Source: a virus | Length of the DNA: 20,915 bases | Reading direction: 5' to 3' (one strand) | IMG/VR virus record: IMGVR_UViG_3300025810_000114 | Location: 1-20,915 of that record | In this document: one piece after another, positions 3,970 through 20,915 of the stretch | How the letters are laid out: every line of letters begins with the position of its first letter | Numbering within the stretch: the first letter of the stretch is position 1 | The notes under the pieces: model-generated | Seen by the model: only the letters and a program-made list of their open reading frames with translations | Told to the model about the DNA's origin: nothing | Database searches by the model: none | Position numbers and translations under genes: made by a program

Positions 3970-4151
3970 TGAATAACAGATACAAAGAACTAAATAACAC
4001 AGAAAAAAATATAGTGGATCAGTTAATTAATTGCATAGCATCAAACAAAATTGAAGGTATGAAATTACTATCCATTATATGTAAGGCACAAGATAAAATC
4101 AGATTAACAAACATATCTAATAAATTTTTACAGGAGTCATACATTGGTTAG
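3969..4151 (+). CDS. Small hypothetical protein, GTG start (60 residues)
   Basis: The start is GTG at 3969, which shares a base with the previous stop (TAGTG) and follows a near-perfect AAAGGAGG ribosome site at 3955-3961. An in-frame ATG at 3921 would begin inside the upstream gene without such a site. The product is short, charged and mostly helical in character (NTEKNIVDQLINCIASNKIEGMKLLSIICKAQD, about residues 10-42). No family recognised. It overlaps the recombinase gene by eight bases, so the two are probably translationally coupled; a recombinase accessory or directionality factor is conceivable only from this position. Confidence 0.65.
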   Translation: MNNRYKELNNTEKNIVDQLINCIASNKIEGMKLLSIICKAQDKIRLTNISNKFLQESYIG

Positions 4152-4938
4152 AAATAAAGCTGGCAAACCACACAAGGGACGATACGTTGCATACTATAGA
4201 GTTAGTACCAACAAACAGTCCCTTGGTTTGGATGCACAAAAGGTAGCAGTAGAACAGCACTTGAACGGTGGCGACTGGAACATGGAAGCAGAGTTCACAG
4301 AAAAAGAGTCTGGAAGAAAAACCGATAGGCATAGACCAGAATTGCGTAAAGCTTTGGACTATTGCCTGGCTCGAAGCTGTACTCTTATTATTGCCAGGCT
4401 GGATAGATTAGCCAGGAACGTTTCTTTTTTAACCAAGATAATGGATAGCAAGGTAAATTTTATAGCTTGTGATGTTCCTAACTTTGATAATCCAGCTACA
4501 AATAAAATGATGCTTACACTTATGATGACACTAGCAGAACATGAGGCGCAACGTATTAGAGATAATACTAAAAAGGCATTAGCTGTTAGAAAGCAACAAA
4601 TAAAAGATGACGGTTTTTTTATAAAGACGGATCTGTTAGGTAATCAACATAAAGTTACAAAGCTTGGTAGTCCTAATGCTAGTATAGGATCTCAACTAGG
4701 TACTAAAGCTATCCAGGATAAAAGTAATCAGGAGGCTGATAGGATTTGTATAGAGATTAATAAAATAAAAAAACTAGGACATACATCATTACGTGAAATA
4801 GCTAAAGAATTACAGGCTAGGGGAGTAAGACCGATACGAGGTGATATGTGGATTGGTATAGATGCAGATGGTAATTCTGTAAACAAGTTATCAAGTTTAC
4901 GTAACATAATGATAAGAGGAGGCATTTATGGAGTATAA
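4144..4938 (+). CDS. Serine recombinase (resolvase/invertase-type site-specific recombinase)
   Basis: The resolvase catalytic domain spans about residues 13-150. YYRVSTNKQS places the nucleophile at Ser21, and ARLDRLARN carries the conserved arginines (R85, R88) with D87 between them. EHEAQRIRDNTKKAL marks the long E helix that links to DNA binding. Residues about 185-264 form a short C-terminal region with TSLREIAKELQARGVRP, a helix-turn-helix of the kind in short alphaproteobacterial recombinases, not the large zinc/coiled-coil domain of phiC31-type integrases. The start is TTG at 4144 with GGAG seven bases before it; no ATG is usable. The enzyme cuts and rejoins DNA through a phosphoserine link. 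It could integrate the phage, resolve concatemers, or invert a segment. I found no matching att or inversion repeats in the window. Confidence 0.88.
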   Translation: MVRNKAGKPHKGRYVAYYRVSTNKQSLGLDAQKVAVEQHLNGGDWNMEAEFTEKESGRKTDRHRPELRKALDYCLARSCTLIIARLDRLARNVSFLTKIMDSKVNFIACDVPNFDNPATNKMMLTLMMTLAEHEAQRIRDNTKKALAVRKQQIKDDGFFIKTDLLGNQHKVTKLGSPNASIGSQLGTKAIQDKSNQEADRICIEINKIKKLGHTSLREIAKELQARGVRPIRGDMWIGIDADGNSVNKLSSLRNIMIRGGIYGV

Positions 4939-5950: not shown

Positions 5951-6169
5951 ATGGATAAGTCTTTAGTTCGCATAACATATATTAGGTCACGAGAGGTTTT
6001 TAGTAATACCTTGTTTTATCTGACTAGGCTGATTAGGTTGTTTAGCAGAACGCATACTTATGAGTATATAGTAGAAACTGTTAAATTACTAATGGTAATA
6101 TTTATTGCATTAAATGTAATATTGTACGTTGCTTATATCATGGAAGTTATGGAGGCTTGGTCATGGTAG
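5951..6169 (+). CDS. Small membrane protein (72 residues)
   Basis: A basic N-terminal half (several arginines between residues 7 and 33) is followed by one clear hydrophobic segment, VKLLMVIFIALNVILYVAYI, at about residues 44-63, then a short acidic end. Positive-inside logic would leave the N terminus in the cytoplasm. The ribosome site is strong (AAAAGGAGAAGG just before the ATG). It overlaps the exonuclease start by seven bases, and its own last codons contain the GGAGG ribosome site of that gene, so translation is coupled. No family recognised. Small membrane proteins in early phage operons often target host envelope functions or superinfection, which here is only a guess. Confidence 0.7.
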   Translation: MDKSLVRITYIRSREVFSNTLFYLTRLIRLFSRTHTYEYIVETVKLLMVIFIALNVILYVAYIMEVMEAWSW

Positions 6170-7110
6170 GTAAACTTACAGACGATACAAAATTATCATG
6201 TAGTCAATTAGCACCATTTGTTAATGCCCAAGATCCGTATAAAACTAAAAATAGTGTGTTAAGGGGTTGCATAGATGCTATGGCTAAAAATTATAAAAGA
6301 TCCGAGGCACCACAATTTAGTGCTATGCATTGGGGTAATACGTTTGAAAATGAAATATTAAAAGCGTGTGCAAATGTATTAGGTATAAAAGCTGAAATAG
6401 ATATAGAACAAAAAGTTGTACATGACACACTACCATTACAAGGATCTCCTGATGGCATTGGCTTAGGCAATGATATCGTTATCAGGAATGACGCAGAGAA
6501 GGGGATATACTTACCTAATAATAGTGGTATACCTTTAGTCGGTCCAGGTATATTAGAGGCTAAACTTACTAGCGCTAAACCTACTGACGTACCAGCTTTG
6601 TATAGAGGTGTCGTTCAGGCACAAGGTTTAATGATGTGTACTGGCTATAGGTGGTGTGCTATTCCAACATTATATGGAGGAGTGCATTTTAAAATATATA
6701 TTTACGAGCAAGATTTGCAAATGCAAGAACGTATTGCAGATGCTTGTAAAGATTTCCAGGACAGATTAGATACATACAAAAAAGAAGGTGTAGTTGACTG
6801 GTATGATGTAGAAGATCCTTTTGATGGTAGCAATACTTATAAAGAAGATATGGGATTACCTCCTGTAAAATTAGTTGAGTCGGATGCAGAGATTGCAGAA
6901 AAATATTTAGATGCATGTGCTTTAATTAAATCAGGTGAAAAAATTAAAGATGAATGTACTGCATATTTTATGTCTATTATTGGTAATCATTCTACAGCAG
7001 AAGGTGAGGGATACAAAGTAACATGGAAAACTAATCCAGCTAAGAAAGGATATTTTGTACCTAGTAAAGAAGCTAGCAGAGCAAAGTCAATAAAAGTTAA
7101 GGAGATATAA
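6163..7110 (+). CDS. YqaJ/lambda-exonuclease-type PD-(D/E)XK nuclease
   Basis: Of 315 residues from the ATG at 6163 (GGAGG seven bases before; a TTG at 6157 is in frame but too close to that site). The fold of the lambda exonuclease/YqaJ viral recombinase family is visible in order: W57-G-N-T-F-E62-N-E near the first helix, LQGSPDG with D97 as the metal-binding aspartate, ILEAKL with E132 and K134 as the ExK pair, and VVQAQG with Q152 and Q154 in the helix that follows. Such enzymes chew one strand of double-stranded ends to give 3' single strands for annealing or strand invasion. D97 to E132 is wider than usual because of a roughly 25-residue insertion. No partner annealing protein of the Beta/RecT type is seen nearby; the SSB-like protein at 2769-3299 might partly cover the role. 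Family call is firm, substrate is inferred. Confidence 0.85.
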   Translation: MVGKLTDDTKLSCSQLAPFVNAQDPYKTKNSVLRGCIDAMAKNYKRSEAPQFSAMHWGNTFENEILKACANVLGIKAEIDIEQKVVHDTLPLQGSPDGIGLGNDIVIRNDAEKGIYLPNNSGIPLVGPGILEAKLTSAKPTDVPALYRGVVQAQGLMMCTGYRWCAIPTLYGGVHFKIYIYEQDLQMQERIADACKDFQDRLDTYKKEGVVDWYDVEDPFDGSNTYKEDMGLPPVKLVESDAEIAEKYLDACALIKSGEKIKDECTAYFMSIIGNHSTAEGEGYKVTWKTNPAKKGYFVPSKEASRAKSIKVKEI

Positions 7111-9650: not shown

Positions 9651-11312
9651 TCAGAAAGCGTTTGAGTACGTGGCACTTTGATCCCCCCAAGCTCCAAATA
9701 TAAAATTACCACCACTTCCATTTAAACCACCACCAGAAGTCCTGATTTTTAGTCCATTTGAAAGTACATCAAAATTATTAGTAGAACCAATACCTGATTC
9801 AGATGAGTTTGTGTCCCAATTAAGTAATGTAGTTACTGGGTTGCTTGTATCTCTTGCTGTATCTAAAACATACCAACTAGCTGAACTATCAATTCTTTTT
9901 ATAAATAACATTCTAGGTCTAAATCCTGTGTAAATAAATGGTCCATCTGTATTACCATTTCCAACATAGGTTCCAAACTTTTGAAAACCTTTAACATCAT
10001 GCCAACAATAAGATATTCCTGCTCCACTGCCTGCATAAGAAGCACCTAAACTAAAAACAGAAGAAGTAGGAGCTGTGCTATTATAAATTGATGAAGTAAA
10101 TTGACCAGAAGTTGTAAAATATAAAACTTTTCCTGAATCAAGTCCAGAATGATACATTGCCCAATTAGCTACACCTGTTAATTTAGATATTATAAATGTT
10201 GGAGCTTCAGATAGACCATGACCAAAAGTTGAATTAGGTGTATATTGAGGCCATTCAACTATACTAAATCCAGCTTTTGTGTTTGCTTGTACTGTAGTAG
10301 TTGTAGCACCATCTGAATTACTAGCTGTTGTTCCTCCATTAGCTCTCCAACACCAAACTACAAAAGGTTTACCACTTTCATTTTGAGATGAAGCATTAGT
10401 TGCAAAACTCCAACCATCACTATCAAATTGTGACCAATATGTTGAATAATCTGATTCTGCACTTGTTTGTTCAGAACGTAATACATTAGCACCTCTATTA
10501 GAATCATACATATATGAAACAGTAGTACCAGTTCTACTATGACCCCAAATAAAATCTGGTTTGAAACCAACTCCACTTATACTTCTATTATTACTTGCAT
10601 CTCCAGTATAAAGAACTGTATTAAATTGTTTACTAGGATAATCAGTATCAGTTTCTGCTGGATCTATATCTGATGATATAGGTAAGTTTGCTGAACACAT
10701 TGCTAAAAAACCAGAAGGAGGTGTATAGTAAAAATCTCCAAATCCATTTTCATCTGTGTTACCTTGAGCTGTTTTTTGACCACAAAAAGTACTATCTTGA
10801 CCTGTATTTAAAGTAGCTACTTGTGTATTCATATAAACATAAGGATAATAAGTAGAACCATCATTTGCACTAGACCAACTAAATGAACCTTGACTACTGT
10901 TATTAATAAAAAATTCCATAGTAGAATTTGTAAAATCCATAGCTACTGCTAGTATAGCTCCACCACTTGCGAAAGAAGAACCATAAGAAGTTGATGTTGA
11001 ATTAGTTTGTGGAGCAGTAGAAACTAATTTATTTCCACCCTCTCTCATTCCTATTATTGCTTTACCAGAAGTAACATTATTTAAATCAGCATTATCAATA
11101 CATACACCAAAATGCAATGAGCCAGGAATACTTGCGGCATAAACTTCATAATAGAATTTACCATCACCTAATTTAAAACCAACATCTAATTGAGCTGCAT
11201 TACCTGTTGTTGAGCCAAGTTGTTGATTAGCATTGTCAATATTTGAATCTGCATAAGAAGATGCTCTACGCTTCAAAGGATTAAATCTTGCAAAATTTCC
11301 ACTACTTGGCAT
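9651..11312 (-). CDS. SPRY-domain tail fibre / host-recognition protein with DUF7483-like repeats
   Basis: 553 residues. The N-terminal 190 residues resemble a SPRY/B30.2 lectin-like fold: FNPLKRR, then DGKFYYEVYAASIPGSLHFGV, AVAMDFTNSTMEFFINN and PYVYMN, in the usual order. Two repeats follow. The first (about 235-335) has GVGFKPDFIWGHSR, FDSDGWSF and FVVWCWRANGG. The second (about 345-550) has GHGLSEAPTFIISK, ISYCWHDVKGFQKFGTYVGN, GFRPRMLFIKR and FIFGAWGD. Such modules are common at the distal ends of marine phage fibres and probably bind cell-surface glycans. Composition is rich in S, T, N and G. It starts 17 bases after the LamG-type gene with its own TAGGAG site; the pair may be the two halves of one ancestral protein. 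Confidence 0.75.
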   Translation of the reverse strand: MPSSGNFARFNPLKRRASSYADSNIDNANQQLGSTTGNAAQLDVGFKLGDGKFYYEVYAASIPGSLHFGVCIDNADLNNVTSGKAIIGMREGGNKLVSTAPQTNSTSTSYGSSFASGGAILAVAMDFTNSTMEFFINNSSQGSFSWSSANDGSTYYPYVYMNTQVATLNTGQDSTFCGQKTAQGNTDENGFGDFYYTPPSGFLAMCSANLPISSDIDPAETDTDYPSKQFNTVLYTGDASNNRSISGVGFKPDFIWGHSRTGTTVSYMYDSNRGANVLRSEQTSAESDYSTYWSQFDSDGWSFATNASSQNESGKPFVVWCWRANGGTTASNSDGATTTTVQANTKAGFSIVEWPQYTPNSTFGHGLSEAPTFIISKLTGVANWAMYHSGLDSGKVLYFTTSGQFTSSIYNSTAPTSSVFSLGASYAGSGAGISYCWHDVKGFQKFGTYVGNGNTDGPFIYTGFRPRMLFIKRIDSSASWYVLDTARDTSNPVTTLLNWDTNSSESGIGSTNNFDVLSNGLKIRTSGGGLNGSGGNFIFGAWGDQSATYSNAF

Positions 11313-11329
11313 TTAATTAACTCCTATCA

Positions 11330-12133
11330 TTACGAACCGAAGGTGGGTGAATCTATAAGCTGGTTATCTGCACTTAAACCACTTGTTGTAAAATCGTTGT
11401 TGTTACCAGAACTATCATCTCCAAGTGCAGAAGCATTTTGATACTTTAGGTAAAATCCATTAGTGCCATAATTACCAGTAGTGTTATGATAATCAACTGG
11501 TGTCCAAATATTATTTTTTGTTGTTCCAAAATAACTAGCATCATAAGAATAACCATCTGCTAAAATAGTTTCTGCCATTAATCCATCAAATCTATTTGAT
11601 CCACTATTTCCATACCAACCAACAAAATTAGGATTACCAGAAGTGTTAAAAAAAGTATCATAATTTTGTGATGGTTGAGTATTTGTGCTATTATCTGTGT
11701 TATCATTTAAAGTGCCATTTACATAAAGCCTAACTCTATTATTAGCAGTTGATTGTGTTGTATCTACTCTTATAACAATATTATACCAACCTGTAGAGTC
11801 ACGATACCTTGCATTAGTTTGCACATTTATTGGGAAACTACCAGTATACTGATAAAGTTGTAGTTTACCAGAATGAGTTCCTCCATTACCAAATTTCATT
11901 GCTGCTTCAGTAGAAGAATTAGCATAAACACCAAAAAAGGCATCATTATCATCTCTTGACCTTTTCAACCACGTGCTGAAAGTAAATGTTCTTCTGTTGC
12001 CTGTACTACTAGGTGTTCTAGTCATGTGAGTTGATTCTTCACGACTAAATCTACAGCTTTGTTCTATTTGATAGTCATAAAAAGCACTACCACTACTTCC
12101 AGGATTTTGAAAAAATTTACCTTGTACTGGCAT
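11330..12133 (-). CDS. LamG/concanavalin-like lectin-domain fibre protein
   Basis: 267 residues. From about 35 to 215 it follows a LamG/ConA jelly-roll: RRTFTFSTWLKRS, AAMKFGNGG, GWYNIVIRVDTTQ, NRVRLYVNGTLND, and FDGLMAETILADG, which is the classic closing strand pattern. The last 40 residues (GLSADNQLIDSPTFGS ending) look like a linker to a following SPRY domain. That domain is found in the next gene, so this may be the front half of a split fibre. Role: binding a surface polysaccharide, inferred from the domain and the position beside the tail fibre. Ribosome site AGGAG nine bases before the ATG. It ends in a double stop, TAATGA. Confidence 0.75.
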   Translation of the reverse strand: MPVQGKFFQNPGSSGSAFYDYQIEQSCRFSREESTHMTRTPSSTGNRRTFTFSTWLKRSRDDNDAFFGVYANSSTEAAMKFGNGGTHSGKLQLYQYTGSFPINVQTNARYRDSTGWYNIVIRVDTTQSTANNRVRLYVNGTLNDNTDNSTNTQPSQNYDTFFNTSGNPNFVGWYGNSGSNRFDGLMAETILADGYSYDASYFGTTKNNIWTPVDYHNTTGNYGTNGFYLKYQNASALGDDSSGNNNDFTTSGLSADNQLIDSPTFGS

Positions 12134-14509: not shown

Positions 14510-14537
14510 ATTATAAAGTTTGTATATTAATCTCCAA
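14510..14537 (-). promoter_or_regulatory. Promoter-like element before the tail fibre gene
   Basis: On the minus strand a consensus TATAAT (14510-14515) lies 16 bases downstream of TTGGAG (14532-14537), in and just before a 40-base gap, one of the larger ones in the late block. The -35 match is weak (three of six). It may boost fibre expression, or be chance in AT-rich DNA. Confidence 0.35.
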
Positions 14538-17001
14538 GCGCCGTACCAAGATTTGGTGGTCGAGAAGGGAAAGTCTGTCCTGGACTCCAGTAATAATCCT
14601 GGTTAAATTCTCTGTAATATCTTTCTCTTTTTCTAAAAGAGCGCTGCGCTTTTGGATCTACGAATTTTTGTATATTGTCTAGAATTATTCTTTCAAAAGC
14701 TAAACGTAAATACCAAACACTTGCTCCTGGAGTATACTGTGCCATGTATCTAGTTAATTCTCTACCAAAGTTAGTATCTTTACCTGATGCTAATTCTATA
14801 ACATTACCTATAGTTAATCTTCCTATATCTCCAATAGCACCGACTACTGGTCCAGCTACAGTTTCTTCTAATCCTCTACCACCTCTGCTAGTTGTCGATA
14901 CTAAAAAATCTCCAAAAATTCCAAGACCTCCACCTTGTAATAATGCCTGTACCCAAAACTCAGGAGTATTCATTGGTCTAGGATCTCTACCTCTTGTTAC
15001 CTGATGCGCTTGCAATGCTAATCCACCCATCAATGTAACACCTATAATATAATCAGCTACAATACTTACTCTACGTTTCGGATCTTTTATTTTCATGTAT
15101 CGCATAAAATGTGTATGCATAACTGTAACTGGATAGTTTTTAAACATAGCCATACTACGTCCTAACTCACCAACAAATGTACCAGGTTTTGCTCCACCTA
15201 CTAAAGATGCTCTTGCTCTTAAAGTAGAAGAGGGGATAGCTGTTTCAGTTTCGGTTACAATCATTTCTAAAACTTTACTTGCTATATCTTCTGCTTTATC
15301 TTTTGGTATTCCTTCTATTTCTTGTATCTTTTGATAATCTAAAAATTTAACATTATTATCTTCATATAATTCTGTTTTTCTTATTAAGTTCCAATCATCA
15401 CTTGTTAATCCATAACGTTCTAAATTTTTTTGTAATAGATCATCTAACTCATCAAATTGTTTATTTACTTGTGATCCAAAATGCGCTAAAAATTCCATAC
15501 CAAATGCTTGTCTTCCAGCTTGTGTCATAGGAGCCAATCCACTTACTCGCATTACAGTATCCGAGATCCTGGTAGTAATGTTAGGACCTGTAGTTTCTCC
15601 AAAGTATCTAGCATTTAATATTGTTGTACTGATATAATTTTCTGCTATTAATCCTAACCTATTACCTAACATAGCTTTTTCTTTAAATGATAAAGGGTTT
15701 AACATTTTAAAATAATTTTTTAAAACTTTAACTTGTGGTAATCCAGCTAACCTAGATGCTATTCTCATATTTTGCATATCAGTTATTGCACTTATTGAAG
15801 CTGATCCTAAAAATGCTGATTGTATTAAGTGCCTTGTACCAGCCATAATATTTGCTATCCGTCCATCTACAGGAGTATTATTTCTTGAGGTATAAGCATC
15901 ATAATAACTTTGTGCTTTTGCAATTTGTGTTTGTGCTTTATTTACAGCGTTACGATTACCTCCTAATTTATCTATGTTAGTTGCTCTTCTTAATATTTCT
16001 GTTTCTATAGCTTTCATCATAGTAGTAGGATTAGGACCTAATATTTGTAATTCAGCAATATCACTTGTCATTTTATCTATGTGATTATTAATAACATTAA
16101 ATGCATTAGGTTCACCATAACGTTCTTGATATTGTATCCAGGAGTCTGCATCTTTAAATTGTAAAAATCTATGCTCTTGTCTTCTATTAGATAAACTACT
16201 TTTTCCGTATACTGACATTTTACCAGGTTTTAATTTATTTGATCCTTCTGATATAATCGTTTCAAAAACTTCATCTAAGGCAAATTCTAAAGACTCTACA
16301 GTATGAGGATTACCAGTTTGTTCATTAATCATTTTTGCTGGATTTAATAAAGGTTTTATAAATTTTTTCCATTCATCTCTACCAGCTACTCTTATATTTA
16401 AAACATGATGCAGTTGTGGTAATCCATAATTATCTAACTTAGGTATACGCATACCATATTCATTAGCTGTTATTCTTGCTTTTTCAAAAACTTTAGTAAC
16501 TGCTTCAGCTATTTCTCTAGCGTTTTTATTACCAGTAGATCCTGGCTCAAATATTTCTTTTACCATTTGGTTTATACTAGATTTGTTTCGTACATTACCT
16601 ACAGCATTTCTACCATACTCGTTTAATAATTTAGTCAACATACCAAAATATTGATTTCGTAATGATGCTCTTCTTCCTTCTAAATTACTAAATGTTCCTA
16701 TATTATCATTAGCTATTATAGCTTGATAGGCTTTGCCAGGATCTCCAGGATATTCGTCTATATTTATCAGGGCTTGTTTCCAGGCACGTAGTTGTAATAA
16801 TTTTACTCTACGTTTATGCATGGCATTATATTTTACCTGGTCAAATGTTTCTTTGCCAGCACGTATACCAGCATTTTCAGGAGTATCATTTTTGCTAAAT
16901 TGTATAAATAATTGATCATATATTTTATTTAATTCTTCAGCTTGTTCCGTAGTAATATTACCTTCACGTTGTCCGTTTACAATACAGTCTTTAAAACTCA
17001 T
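14527..17001 (-). CDS. Internal virion protein-type, DNA-ejection candidate (824 residues)
   Basis: A large, mostly helical protein with many basic and glutamine-rich helices and no enzyme motif that I can see. A hydrophobic helix at about 648-664 (ADYIIGVTLMGGLALQ) and a glycine-rich stretch after it (QGGGLGIFGDFLVST) could insert in a membrane. The C-terminal YYWSPGQTFPSRPPNL ending recurs in large phage proteins of this position. In T7, the genes before the tail fibre encode the internal core proteins gp14-gp16 that form the ejection channel; this gene has the same place, so an equivalent role is inferred from order and size. The ATG overlaps the upstream stop (ATGA), with GAGG seven bases before it. 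Sequence similarity to T7 gp15 is not obvious by eye. Confidence 0.6.
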   Translation of the reverse strand: MSFKDCIVNGQREGNITTEQAEELNKIYDQLFIQFSKNDTPENAGIRAGKETFDQVKYNAMHKRRVKLLQLRAWKQALINIDEYPGDPGKAYQAIIANDNIGTFSNLEGRRASLRNQYFGMLTKLLNEYGRNAVGNVRNKSSINQMVKEIFEPGSTGNKNAREIAEAVTKVFEKARITANEYGMRIPKLDNYGLPQLHHVLNIRVAGRDEWKKFIKPLLNPAKMINEQTGNPHTVESLEFALDEVFETIISEGSNKLKPGKMSVYGKSSLSNRRQEHRFLQFKDADSWIQYQERYGEPNAFNVINNHIDKMTSDIAELQILGPNPTTMMKAIETEILRRATNIDKLGGNRNAVNKAQTQIAKAQSYYDAYTSRNNTPVDGRIANIMAGTRHLIQSAFLGSASISAITDMQNMRIASRLAGLPQVKVLKNYFKMLNPLSFKEKAMLGNRLGLIAENYISTTILNARYFGETTGPNITTRISDTVMRVSGLAPMTQAGRQAFGMEFLAHFGSQVNKQFDELDDLLQKNLERYGLTSDDWNLIRKTELYEDNNVKFLDYQKIQEIEGIPKDKAEDIASKVLEMIVTETETAIPSSTLRARASLVGGAKPGTFVGELGRSMAMFKNYPVTVMHTHFMRYMKIKDPKRRVSIVADYIIGVTLMGGLALQAHQVTRGRDPRPMNTPEFWVQALLQGGGLGIFGDFLVSTTSRGGRGLEETVAGPVVGAIGDIGRLTIGNVIELASGKDTNFGRELTRYMAQYTPGASVWYLRLAFERIILDNIQKFVDPKAQRSFRKRERYYREFNQDYYWSPGQTFPSRPPNLGTALGD

Positions 17002-20000
17002 GCGCAGTCCTCTAATCTATTTAACATTTTTTTATCTTGATTAATTTCGTTAAGTATATCGGTACGTGATTGTGTAGTTAATACTTCCTGGTCATCAATA
17101 ATTTGTGCTATAGGAACGTTGTCATATATAGATGAGTCTGCTTTTTGTTTTTGTAGATCTACTTCGAGTTCTTTAAGCGTAGCTTCTGCAATTCCTTCTT
17201 GAGTGCTGGTTGCATCTCGTCTGCTATCTGATCTGACTTGTCGTAATCGTATTCCTGTCCCTTGTATAATTTGTTCGTTTGAGATTTCCAGCGCTGTAGG
17301 CTGTTCTCCGATAGCTTGATTGTTGTCGATTTCTGCGAAGTCATCAAATTTTCCTTTCAATTCATTATATGTTATTTTTGGTTTATTTCCAATACCTAAT
17401 ACATATTCAGGCATTATTAATCTACCTGTACCAATAAACCTATTAATCATTCTATTAAATACTTTTTCTGGTTTTACATCCATATACATTAACTGTACTG
17501 AGTATCCTTGGTCCTTAAATCTTTTTTGTAATTTTGTAACTTTTGTTGAAGTATGTCCTACAATCGGAGTAATAATATTATTACCTTTTTTCATAGACTC
17601 ATCTAATATTTCTTCAGCTATAACTTTACTTTCTAAATGTAATGCATTTCCTCCTAAACCATCTTGGTACTCTGGTAAACTTTTTTTTACTTCGTCACTA
17701 TCTACAATTGCTGATTTAGTTTTTCTTGCTATTTTATTTGCTATAGAACTTTTACCACTAGCTGGAGCGCCTATTAATATTATTGCTTTTTTATCTTGTA
17801 AAACTGATTCAGGTATTAAGTCTTCTTCTTCCCAGGCTAATCTTTCTGCATGCAATACATGATTATCAATACCGTCAATATAACCTGTAGCTGACCAGTT
17901 TTTCATTTTAAATTTTCTTTTTTCTAACCATGATACTGATCCATAATTAGGATCATTTACTGTAATAGGTATTGTTTTTGCTTTTTCTAATGCTGAAATA
18001 ATTGCTGGATGCTTAATTATTTGTTCCGTACCAAAATTATCATCTTGCATTTTATTTTTAAGATCTATACGTACAGCTTTATCATCTTCAAAACCTTCAC
18101 GTACTCCTATTTCTTCTTCTGTAATTCTTTGTAATTGATCACCTTGTTGTTCTACAGCTTTGCTTTTTTTGACATCATCAAATCCTGGGATTGGTTCTGA
18201 TTGCTCTGGGACCAGAGGGATTTTCTCTTTAGTTTCAAAAGTAGTTCCAATTCCCCCAACTGAGTCCCCATCAATATTGCCTTCTGATACTGCTCTTCGG
18301 ATAGACTCGACAAATTCTCCTGTAGCTTGTCCGAGGTTGCCTGTTTGTTTATATTCTTTTGCAATGGCTGTAAGGTTGTCGGAGAGATTACCTTTTTTGT
18401 TTGCTTCTTTTTTGAGTATTTCTTGGGCTGTTGCATCTATCATTTCCTTTCTTTTATTTGCATCTCTTAATAATTGATTACCTTCTCTTTCTATTCTTGT
18501 ATGATTACGAACCAATGTATTAAAAACTTTTTTATCTTGTTTTAATAAGCGCAGCGCATTGTCTAAAACGGTTGCACGTTCTTTAAATAATGATTGTAAT
18601 AACATTTCTTGACCAAACAAAGTTTGTTCTTTTACTTGAGTAAAACCTGAACTTAATGCTTGTCTTACTATTTGTTCTGCCTGAAACTCGTTTGCTGGGT
18701 TATTATCAATTAATACTTTTGCTATAGGAAAATGTTTACTAGGATCGCTTACTAACTTACCAATTATACTTGCATAATTAGATGGTATTTTTTCATTTAT
18801 AACTAAACCAAATGCATCATCAGATAAACTTGCTAGATGTTTACCTTGTCTAGCTAATTGAGATCTAGGTGGTAAAGTTTTAAATTTATCAGGATCTATT
18901 CTTAATATCCTAGATGCATCAACTGGTGTACCTGTTCCTTCTGCAATATTTTTTAATGCTCCTATTACTTTTATTTGCTCTGGTGTAAAACCATCTACTT
19001 CTTTAAAAACAAAACCTGAAAGTATAGGATCTTGTTTAGGATCTTTTGCTTTTATTCTTTTTGCTAATGCTAATCTTTGATGACCGTCTACAATAAATCT
19101 TTTACCATTTTTATTTTCAAAAACTAATATTTGTCCAGCAAAATGAGGTTCCCATGTTTTTATATCTTTTAATCTATCTGATACACCAAATTCATCACCA
19201 CCTGATTTAAACTGAAATGTTTTTGCATCTACCTCTATTTCTTCAGGTCTAAAATTTACAGCCTCATCAGGTTTTGTAATTTGTTGTATTTGTTCTTTAC
19301 TTAAATTATTTTCTATTGGTGCTACAGGATCTTTTAAATTTAAAGCTGTATCTTCTTCATTTAAAATTTTAAGCGCTTCATTATGTCTATTGATATGTTC
19401 TTTTTCTCCATTTAATTTTTCTTTTGTTGTTGTTTTAGTAAATGGATTATCATTAATTATATTAGCTTCATCTTCTGTTTCTCTTAATACGTATTCAATT
19501 AAATCTTCGTTAATAGAATCTCCATTAGGATCTTTAATTTCTCCTCTAGATAATTTACCTTTTACATGAGGTAAAATAGATTTTACTCCTGATACAACTC
19601 CGTTAGTAGCAATACCAAATAGTCCACCACCACCAGCCATAATACCTATATCTGCAATCACCTGACTTGTATCGTAATCAATACCAGCTTTATCTCGCCA
19701 GGCTTTTACTGTTGGTCTTGTAAATAATCCATAAGTACCTTCTGCTAATGCATTATATAAAAAATGTTTTGCAAATGCTTTTGCTGTAAATCCATAAGGA
19801 GTAGTAGATCCTATTGCTAATGTAGCAACTCCCATAGGATTACGTATCATATCATAACCTTCTGCTGTTATTGTAGCTAGTGTACTTCCCCAGGTCATAC
19901 CCTTAACATTGTCTTCATATTCTTTCCTGGCATTTCTTGCTAATTCACCAGCACGTATTTGTACTAATTCTTCAGTAAATAATGGTAAGTGTTGTAATCG

Positions 20001-20324
20001 TCCATCATCTTTTATAAGTTTATTTAAATTAACTAAACCTTCTAAAAATTGATCTTTGTGTTGTCTTCCCTGATAACCTTCACCTTGTCCTCTAGATGCA
20101 TCTCCAAAGTTATTTATTCTTTTACCAGTTATTTCATGTATCTCATCTAGTACAGGTTGTAATGCCTGAGAATACGCTTCACCTTCTGAAAATATAGATC
20201 CAGATAATTTATGATCTTTCCAGGTAACATCCCAATCTCTTCCAAAATCTGATTGATATGGTTCCGTAGCTGGTCCAAGGTTTGGATTATTAGATACAAA
20301 ATCATCTGGATTTTTAAAGTACAT
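16998..20324 (-). CDS. Polyvalent virion-type protein with ParB-like and zeta-toxin-like kinase domains (1108 residues)
   Basis: A multidomain protein. Two glycine-rich hydrophobic stretches lie at about 164-200 and 221-252 and could reach a membrane. A ParB/Srx-type domain spans about 365-470, with VDGHQRLALAKRI placing DGHQR at 413-417, the signature loop. A long charged helical region follows. A zeta-toxin-type kinase spans about 840-1000: Walker A GAPASGKSS at 852-860 (K858, S859), an IVDSDEVKKSLPEY segment with the acidic residue expected to bind substrate, and later VQLMYMDVKPEKVFNRMINRF with an arginine helix. Zeta kinases phosphorylate UDP-activated sugars or nucleotides. Fusions of ParB-like, kinase and other effector domains are known as polyvalent proteins, thought to be injected with the DNA. 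The start overlaps the upstream stop as TAATG, with no clear ribosome site. Enzyme activity is inferred. Confidence 0.75.
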   Translation of the reverse strand: MYFKNPDDFVSNNPNLGPATEPYQSDFGRDWDVTWKDHKLSGSIFSEGEAYSQALQPVLDEIHEITGKRINNFGDASRGQGEGYQGRQHKDQFLEGLVNLNKLIKDDGRLQHLPLFTEELVQIRAGELARNARKEYEDNVKGMTWGSTLATITAEGYDMIRNPMGVATLAIGSTTPYGFTAKAFAKHFLYNALAEGTYGLFTRPTVKAWRDKAGIDYDTSQVIADIGIMAGGGGLFGIATNGVVSGVKSILPHVKGKLSRGEIKDPNGDSINEDLIEYVLRETEDEANIINDNPFTKTTTKEKLNGEKEHINRHNEALKILNEEDTALNLKDPVAPIENNLSKEQIQQITKPDEAVNFRPEEIEVDAKTFQFKSGGDEFGVSDRLKDIKTWEPHFAGQILVFENKNGKRFIVDGHQRLALAKRIKAKDPKQDPILSGFVFKEVDGFTPEQIKVIGALKNIAEGTGTPVDASRILRIDPDKFKTLPPRSQLARQGKHLASLSDDAFGLVINEKIPSNYASIIGKLVSDPSKHFPIAKVLIDNNPANEFQAEQIVRQALSSGFTQVKEQTLFGQEMLLQSLFKERATVLDNALRLLKQDKKVFNTLVRNHTRIEREGNQLLRDANKRKEMIDATAQEILKKEANKKGNLSDNLTAIAKEYKQTGNLGQATGEFVESIRRAVSEGNIDGDSVGGIGTTFETKEKIPLVPEQSEPIPGFDDVKKSKAVEQQGDQLQRITEEEIGVREGFEDDKAVRIDLKNKMQDDNFGTEQIIKHPAIISALEKAKTIPITVNDPNYGSVSWLEKRKFKMKNWSATGYIDGIDNHVLHAERLAWEEEDLIPESVLQDKKAIILIGAPASGKSSIANKIARKTKSAIVDSDEVKKSLPEYQDGLGGNALHLESKVIAEEILDESMKKGNNIITPIVGHTSTKVTKLQKRFKDQGYSVQLMYMDVKPEKVFNRMINRFIGTGRLIMPEYVLGIGNKPKITYNELKGKFDDFAEIDNNQAIGEQPTALEISNEQIIQGTGIRLRQVRSDSRRDATSTQEGIAEATLKELEVDLQKQKADSSIYDNVPIAQIIDDQEVLTTQSRTDILNEINQDKKMLNRLEDCA

Positions 20325-20851
20325 TATAAATTAGTCGCTTCTTTTGTGTAATGTTCTACTGTTCCTTTTCCAGCCTCAGTATTCCAATTTTTTTTCCACC
20401 ATGCTGCTCTTTCTTCAACAGTATTACCTATAGGTTCTGGTGACATAGCCATAAATAAACGCAACATCACAGCGCTATGTAATGGTTTATTCATATCTTC
20501 CCATTTTAATTCACTTATTTTAAAATTTATTTCTGGGTATTTTTGATTTATTGCATCTTCAATTTTTTTAACATTTTTAGATAATGTGCCACCTGGCTCA
20601 TTCTTTAATCTGTTTTGTATTGTAGCAAAAGCTGTTTCTGGTCCGTCATCAAATTGAAAAGGTCCTGTACTATAAGATGAAAATGTACCTTTTTGTGTAG
20701 CAAAAATACTTTCTGCACTTGCTATTTCCATCATTTGTAATCTAGTGTTTTCTATATTACTACCTGGCATAATGTCCGTTACAAAATTTACAGCAGTTTG
20801 GATAATAGGTTTACCACTTGCGTAAGGTGTTTTAATTGTATAATTTTCCAT
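20324..20851 (-). CDS. Lysozyme/transglycosylase-like internal virion protein (N terminus uncertain)
   Basis: About 175 residues from the preferred ATG at 20851 (GGAG nine bases before); another ATG at 20866 lacks a ribosome site. The frame stays open from there to the right edge, so it could also be the C-terminal part of a longer protein. Residues about 40-70, MEIASAESIF then TFSSYSTGPFQFD, resemble the SLT fold: a catalytic-type glutamate (E42 or E47) followed by a GPFQF strand, as in lytic transglycosylases. A WKKNW near the C terminus would suit a wall-binding surface. In T7 the gp16 internal core protein carries such a domain to open the cell wall during ejection; the position here, at the head of the ejection-type genes, agrees. 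Family call moderate. Confidence 0.55.
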   Translation of the reverse strand: MENYTIKTPYASGKPIIQTAVNFVTDIMPGSNIENTRLQMMEIASAESIFATQKGTFSSYSTGPFQFDDGPETAFATIQNRLKNEPGGTLSKNVKKIEDAINQKYPEINFKISELKWEDMNKPLHSAVMLRLFMAMSPEPIGNTVEERAAWWKKNWNTEAGKGTVEHYTKEATNL

Positions 20852-20915
20852 AATTTTTTTCTCCATTTGTTGTATTTCTTTTTTTCTATTTTCTATTATT
20901 TCTGTTTGTCTAAGA

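Follow-up and report, generated by a model that had tools for sequence, protein, structure and literature searches.

A ParB-payload protein with an exchangeable enzyme slot encoded at the epsilon15 gp16 position of a marine short-tailed phage

Domain organization of the ParB-payload protein

The 20,915-nucleotide stretch of DNA analyzed here (positions 1–20,915 of IMG/VR record IMGVR_UViG_3300025810_000114; hereafter the window) comes from a marine short-tailed phage. An open reading frame (ORF) on its minus strand, at 16998–20324, encodes a modular protein of 1108 amino acid residues in which a ParB-fold module precedes an enzyme domain (hereafter the payload), and synteny places this gene in the slot of epsilon15 gp16. 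A preliminary description of the window, made from the sequence alone, had noticed in this ORF a ParB-like domain with the motif DGHQR at residues 413–417 and a zeta-type kinase with a Walker A motif at residues 852–859, and both motifs lie at these positions. The parts of the protein are given below with their minus-strand coordinates. Residues 1–330 (19335–20324) form a poorly conserved N-terminal region without a known domain, which contains a Gly-rich, weakly hydrophobic stretch at residues 222–240. Transmembrane support for the stretches between residues 164 and 252, which had been suggested to thread the protein into the membrane, was weak, the best 19-mer (residues 222–240) having a mean hydropathy of 1.55.

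The ParB-fold module (residues 331–690; 18255–19334) is constant in the family and comprises a ParB N-domain and helix-turn-helix (HTH)-like helices, followed by a helical region. A Pfam scan of this part returned only GmrSD_N (E 0.04) and missed the fold, and a profile search matched phrog_10691 to residues 342–683 at 4e-58. An AlphaFold model of residues 331–690 built from 50 sequences had a mean predicted local distance difference test (pLDDT) score of 87; its best PDB structure match by Foldseek was Noc (2.5e-5), with ParB-CTP structures at approximately 1e-3, and the Noc/ParB match spanned the N-terminal domain and the HTH domain. By this model, which bears out the ParB-like domain of the preliminary description, the module belongs to the ParB/Noc fold superfamily, with the N-domain first and the HTH after it. 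The GHQR of DGHQR (19074–19088) is invariant in 50 diverse sequences, as is the downstream N459. Regarding the DdrB-like ParB family, there was no Pfam ddrB-ParB match; in the alignment, R417, which is the active-site motif Arg, is conserved together with an Asp before it, and an invariant Tyr is lacking. Window residues 351–661, which lie in the ParB module, also matched positions 1014–1328, the end of the portal-protein profile phrog_21. Since this profile ends with the ParB module seen here, either the module is fused to the portal protein in some phages or the profile is mixed.

A conserved linker motif, GFDD...QQGDQL (residues 714–735; 18120–18185), marks the upstream edge of the payload slot. 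The payload cassette behind it occupies approximately residues 736–1060 (17145–18119; edges approximate and placed by homology) and contains the zeta-type kinase core at residues 843–993 (17346–17798). Three analyses supported the kinase assignment made in the preliminary description: Pfam Zeta_toxin matched residues 843–993 with an E value of 7.5e-17, well above the family cut-off; a profile of 17 kinase-family sequences matched Zeta (3.8e-9) and PezT (2.8e-4) in the PDB; and an AlphaFold model of residues 750–1108 (mean pLDDT 83) had Zeta (1gvn; 5e-9) and PezT (8e-8) as its top PDB matches. In the alignment of the 17 sequences, K858 and S859 of the Walker A motif GAPASGKS (residues 852–859; 17748–17771) are invariant, as are D875 and D877 (17694–17696), the latter aligned with the zeta catalytic base D67, and R958, R962, and R968 (17421–17453), which are putative kinase lid arginines assigned by analogy. 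Judging from this alignment, the catalytic residues are intact. A conserved C-terminal tail (approximately residues 1061–1108; 17001–17144) closes the protein, with Cys1107 one residue before the end.

The preliminary description had proposed UDP-N-acetylglucosamine (UDP-GlcNAc, UNAG) as a substrate. Zeta contacts UDP-GlcNAc through T118, R120, and E100 (Mutschler et al. 2011, PMC3062530), and the T118V variant of PezT is non-toxic (PMC3062530). When these residues were mapped by profile alignment, not by structure superposition, T118 corresponded to V922 (V in 13 and T in 4 of the 17 family members), R120 to H924 (R in 3 of 17), and E100 to E904, which is present here and varies across the family. 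Thus, D877 is kept, but because the zeta contact residues are not, UDP-GlcNAc bound as in zeta is probably not the substrate, and the proposal has become doubtful.

The payload slot and its exchange between near-identical phages

A single-sequence PDB search with the protein gave chance-level matches only. In viral contigs, a search with the full protein gave one locus, and relatives had to be gathered with an alignment of the ParB module. Viral contigs then yielded 80 loci, and a further 47 came from bacterial genome contigs, mostly of alphaproteobacteria, with a Flavobacteriaceae and a Polaribacter metagenome-assembled genome (MAG) besides. The closest relative (L010) has the same architecture and is 72% identical in the ParB module. 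The region downstream of the module was then classed by iterated profiles in 75 proteins, including that of the window: 23 carry a zeta kinase, 28 a RelA/SpoT-type domain, 15 no payload, and nine something else (17, 20, 14, and 7, respectively, after removal of near copies). The zeta and RelA types never occur together in one protein (0 of 75).

Pfam misses most of the RelA/SpoT-type payloads. The iterated profile by which they were classed includes Pfam-recognized members; L076, for example, has a RelA_SpoT match at 1.1e-11. The same 28 members were reached from three different seeds. The replacement of the zeta kinase by this payload was observed in L076, L084, L026, and 25 more loci. The RelA-type profile has one invariant Asp and one invariant Glu, and its best PDB match was the type VI secretion system toxin Tas1 (8.5e-22), followed by many GTP pyrophosphokinases. 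Tas1 is a (p)ppApp synthetase. Behind the slot, the tail is mostly similar, and a terminal Cys lies 1 to 8 residues from the C-terminus in 68 of 68 tailed relatives, a count that leaves out six very large or different proteins; this near-terminal Cys recurs across the window (17001–17144) and L010–L089. Some proteins are built differently. In L033, L034, and L052, the RelA-type payload is preceded by an additional segment after the ParB module; this segment weakly matches GNAT (0.006, L033) and holds an apparent second ParB-like motif, DGNSTYSVA. In L119, L133, and L135, from Gastranaerophilales and Elusimicrobia MAGs, the ParB module sits in proteins of 2100 to 2700 amino acids, two of the three with a zeta profile match.

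The payload is exchanged between closely related phages. On the tree of the ParB module, the zeta label requires 12 changes, and at least eight of these are forced by well-supported branches. The zeta payload did not arise once and then descend vertically, as the constraint of one zeta clade was rejected (p 1e-103). In the pair L039 (no payload) and L048 (RelA type), approximately 14 kb were compared; identity between the two is 90% across the 13.0 kb on the upstream side and 94% on the downstream side, and their only large difference is an in-frame insertion of 846 bp, the payload itself. L048 and L050 carry two different RelA-type payloads between flanks that are 92% and 94% identical, and L011 (RelA type) and L020 (zeta) differ in payload type between flanks of 92% and 89% identity; L023 (zeta) and L024 (RelA type) form a further swap pair. 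No gene was gained or lost alongside the payload in the near-identical pairs, and the payload is therefore not accompanied by an immunity gene within the compared stretches.

The ratio of nonsynonymous to synonymous substitution rates (dN/dS) of the zeta payload was 0.03 to 0.14 in ten pairs, and that of RelA-type payloads was 0.01 to 0.52 where measurable. The zeta payload is thus under purifying selection, and the domain is therefore kept for its function. As the preliminary description had remarked, no antitoxin stands beside the gene: the epsilon-type antitoxin PF08998 was not found in 16 related virus records, and the neighboring ORFs of the window had no antitoxin match. This absence may be less odd than had been supposed: a late virion gene would presumably not have to spare the cell that produces it and, if expressed late in a cell bound to lyse, would require no antitoxin.

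An epsilon15-like ejection module

The ParB-payload gene overlaps the next gene (14527–17001, minus strand) by 4 bp. The latter encodes a phrog_684 virion structural protein at the position of epsilon15 gp17 and follows the ParB-payload gene in the window and in most loci; its pelagiphage homologues are annotated as internal virion proteins, and a homologue is also present in 34 of the 47 bacterial contigs. Upstream, a 180-residue ORF is the C-terminal end (phrog_3108) of a large gene of approximately 1050 to 1090 amino acids at the position of epsilon15 gp15, cut by the window edge (20324–20915, minus strand). In relatives, this gene is 1086 (L010) and 1049 (L001) amino acids long, with phrog_3108 at its end. 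L001, which is 92% identical to the window over the common 716 bp, has the order major head protein, tail tube (phrog_394), tail protein (phrog_376), internal virion protein (phrog_418), large protein, and ParB-payload gene. In the epsilon15 record, the internal virion proteins are followed by gp15, whose annotation notes similarity to a lytic transglycosylase, and then by gp16 and gp17. The gene order from the head protein to phrog_684 thus equals that of epsilon15 gp7 to gp17, and the ParB-payload gene therefore occupies the gp16 slot, in agreement with its earlier placement among ejection-type genes. A review assigns the ejection proteins of epsilon15 to gp11–gp13; this assignment was set aside, since the sizes disagree with the genome record.

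Elsewhere in the window, a recombinase-like gene with matches to DNA invertase and integrase profiles (4144–4938, plus strand) and a RecE-like exonuclease (6157–7110, plus strand) suggest that the phage is temperate or was formerly so. At 9651–12133 on the minus strand are two adjoining tail-module genes with lectin-like domains (Laminin_G_3; SPRY and DUF7483), both of which match parts of a single virion protein profile, phrog_19943.

Predicted function and comparison with known systems

We consider it reasonably probable that the protein is an ejected, polymorphic-toxin-like effector, in which a virion protein at the gp16 position offers an exchangeable enzyme slot. The preliminary description had called the gene a candidate for an undescribed anti-host system. 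The anti-host part of this claim stands, as an effector is the best reading because the slot alternates with a Tas1-like synthetase; the kind itself is not undescribed, because polyvalent virion proteins (PMC5512222, 2017) and MuF phage toxins (PMC5576092) were already known. Payload swapping among near-identical phages also points to an interchangeable weapon delivered at infection. In relatives, the protein of this slot is presumably injected along with the phage DNA. From synteny we infer that the present protein is likewise carried in the head and enters the host together with the DNA; its topology, toxicity, and substrate are predictions as well. The N-terminal region, the ParB module, and the C-terminal tail would be its constant parts. 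In the host cytoplasm, the ParB module would probably bind or clamp the incoming phage DNA, NTPs, or both, and the tail probably serves as a signal for packaging or ejection. T7 gp16 has a DNA-binding C-terminal part that extends into the host cytoplasm (PMC8954989); by analogy, the ParB module may be the DNA-binding part here. The slot between module and tail would take an exchangeable enzyme that modifies small molecules: here a zeta-type kinase, which, by phosphorylating a nucleotide or nucleotide-sugar of the host at entry, would arrest or redirect host metabolism, and in relatives a Tas1-like synthetase of the RelA/SpoT type, or nothing.

Several points weigh against this interpretation. 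Toxicity and enzymatic activity of the family members are predictions, and with the zeta substrate contacts unconserved in the alignment, a toxic kinase activity on UDP-sugars cannot be taken for granted. The payload is dispensable, as payload-free relatives exist. The N-terminal region has no detectable homology to epsilon15 gp16, and no proteomics places the protein or any homologue in virions; such data for the homologue of Prochlorococcus phage P-SCSP1 were sought in two papers and not found.

Of the other explanations, we judge counter-defence to be rather unlikely. The injected kinase, or the RelA/SpoT-type enzyme of relatives, would here alter nucleotide signals or cofactors of host immunity and so shield the entering DNA. 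Both payload types are nucleotide-acting enzymes by family, their fast exchange between near-identical phages is what an arms race against varied defences would produce, and such a role requires no immunity gene; however, Tas1 and the relatives of the zeta and MuF-Apk2 kind have been described as toxins, defence-linked models were matched only marginally (IetA, E 0.006), and there is no direct evidence. It is improbable that the P-loop and the ParB module are simply parts of an ejection machine, an NTP-driven aid to DNA entry without an effector role. The position in the ejection module, the ParB fold, and DNA binding by the cytoplasmic part of T7 gp16 (PMC8954989) fit such a machine, but 15 relatives lack the kinase and 28 have the RelA/SpoT type in its place, with the remainder unchanged. 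The kinase is thus not needed for ejection, which does not exclude a role of the ParB module in it.

The protein could instead be a polymorphic toxin whose targets are rival bacteria or superinfecting phages and not the infected host. It would then have the same design as the MuF polymorphic toxins, and relatives that bear the module lie in long alphaproteobacterial chromosomal contigs, which are probably prophages. We nevertheless regard this target as highly improbable, since no immunity gene accompanies the payload in the compared pairs, whereas MuF-Apk2 has adjacent iapK and aph1. The patchy presence of the payload could also be expected of a decayed or passenger domain without function; with a dN/dS of 0.03 to 0.14 and invariant K858, S859, D877, R958, R962, and R968, this explanation is scarcely tenable.

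Extending the effector interpretation to podoviral ejection proteins, we tentatively propose, as something quite possible but a little short of probable, that they carry a polymorphic toxin-like system. Its ParB part would act as a clamp that keeps the ejected protein on the incoming genome. Its single internal slot with constant borders would change its content by homologous recombination, receiving a zeta-type kinase with a new substrate specificity, a Tas1-like alarmone synthetase, or no enzyme at all, and no immunity gene would be involved. If this is true, short-tailed phages deliver enzymes, and not just a channel, during DNA entry, and exchange them as readily as bacteria do their polymorphic toxins. 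With the payload present, absent, or swapped, the near-identical pairs amount to isogenic comparisons made by nature, and they therefore make the host effects of injected phage proteins, an old question, directly testable. A zeta-type kinase with an altered substrate pocket would moreover be a new enzyme activity to define.

Among known systems, the polyvalent proteins of Iyer et al. 2017 are large late-gene phage proteins with ParB-like, zeta-toxin-like kinase, RelA/SpoT, and other activities, and their injection has been proposed (PMC5512222). The present protein likewise combines disparate activities in one polypeptide encoded among late virion genes, and its ParB module is also found in a 3912-residue protein of Ruegeria phage 45A6. 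By contrast, the zeta-like kinases reported for polyvalent proteins belong to conjugative elements and MuF fusions; here, the ParB domain lacks a DdrB-ParB Pfam match, no metallopeptidase was seen, and the near-identical pairs reveal a single exchangeable slot with constant borders. MuF phage toxins, which are head-associated and thought to be delivered with DNA, have variable C-terminal domains, including RelA-like (p)ppApp synthetases, plus immunity genes, iapK and aph1 lying next to MuF-Apk2 (PMC5576092, PMC12226406). A variable enzyme domain on a constant carrier is found here too, its toxin nature being predicted. However, nothing in the window matched a MuF domain; the carrier is a podovirus ejection-slot protein whose gene lies in the ejection module, whereas MuF adjoins the portal; the payload lies inside the protein and is followed by a constant tail, whereas that of MuF is C-terminal; and phrog_684, not immunity genes, comes next in most loci.

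Epsilon15 gp16 and SPN1S_0018 share the gene order and a C-terminal tail with a near-terminal Cys. The tail profile scored 14.8 bits on SPN1S_0018, which occupies this slot, and 4.9 bits on epsilon15 gp16; since the highest score among 1000 shuffles was 9.4, the likeness is significant for SPN1S and by eye only for epsilon15. These two proteins have 600 to 634 amino acids, without ParB or payload, and homology to them in the N-terminal region was undetected. Zeta and PezT share the fold, Walker A motif, catalytic Asp, and conserved arginines; unlike them, the kinase here has no antitoxin, does not conserve the UNAG-contact residues, and is part of a virion-type protein. By sequence criteria, the protein fits the polyvalent proteins, and the system is neither a MuF toxin nor an epsilon/zeta system. 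Gene 114 of halovirus HCTV-5, which lies in the head-gene region and encodes a zeta toxin and ParB nuclease domain protein, also joins zeta-like and ParB-like domains in one product of 1293 amino acids, but in reverse domain order, with a different ParB, in an archaeal virus, and in another gene context. A literature search, with most subscription journals and preprints outside its reach, found no paper in which zeta toxin is linked to ParB and podovirus, nor one that links it to an internal virion protein. The class is already known from polyvalent proteins and MuF toxins, and the carrier and the internal slot look new.

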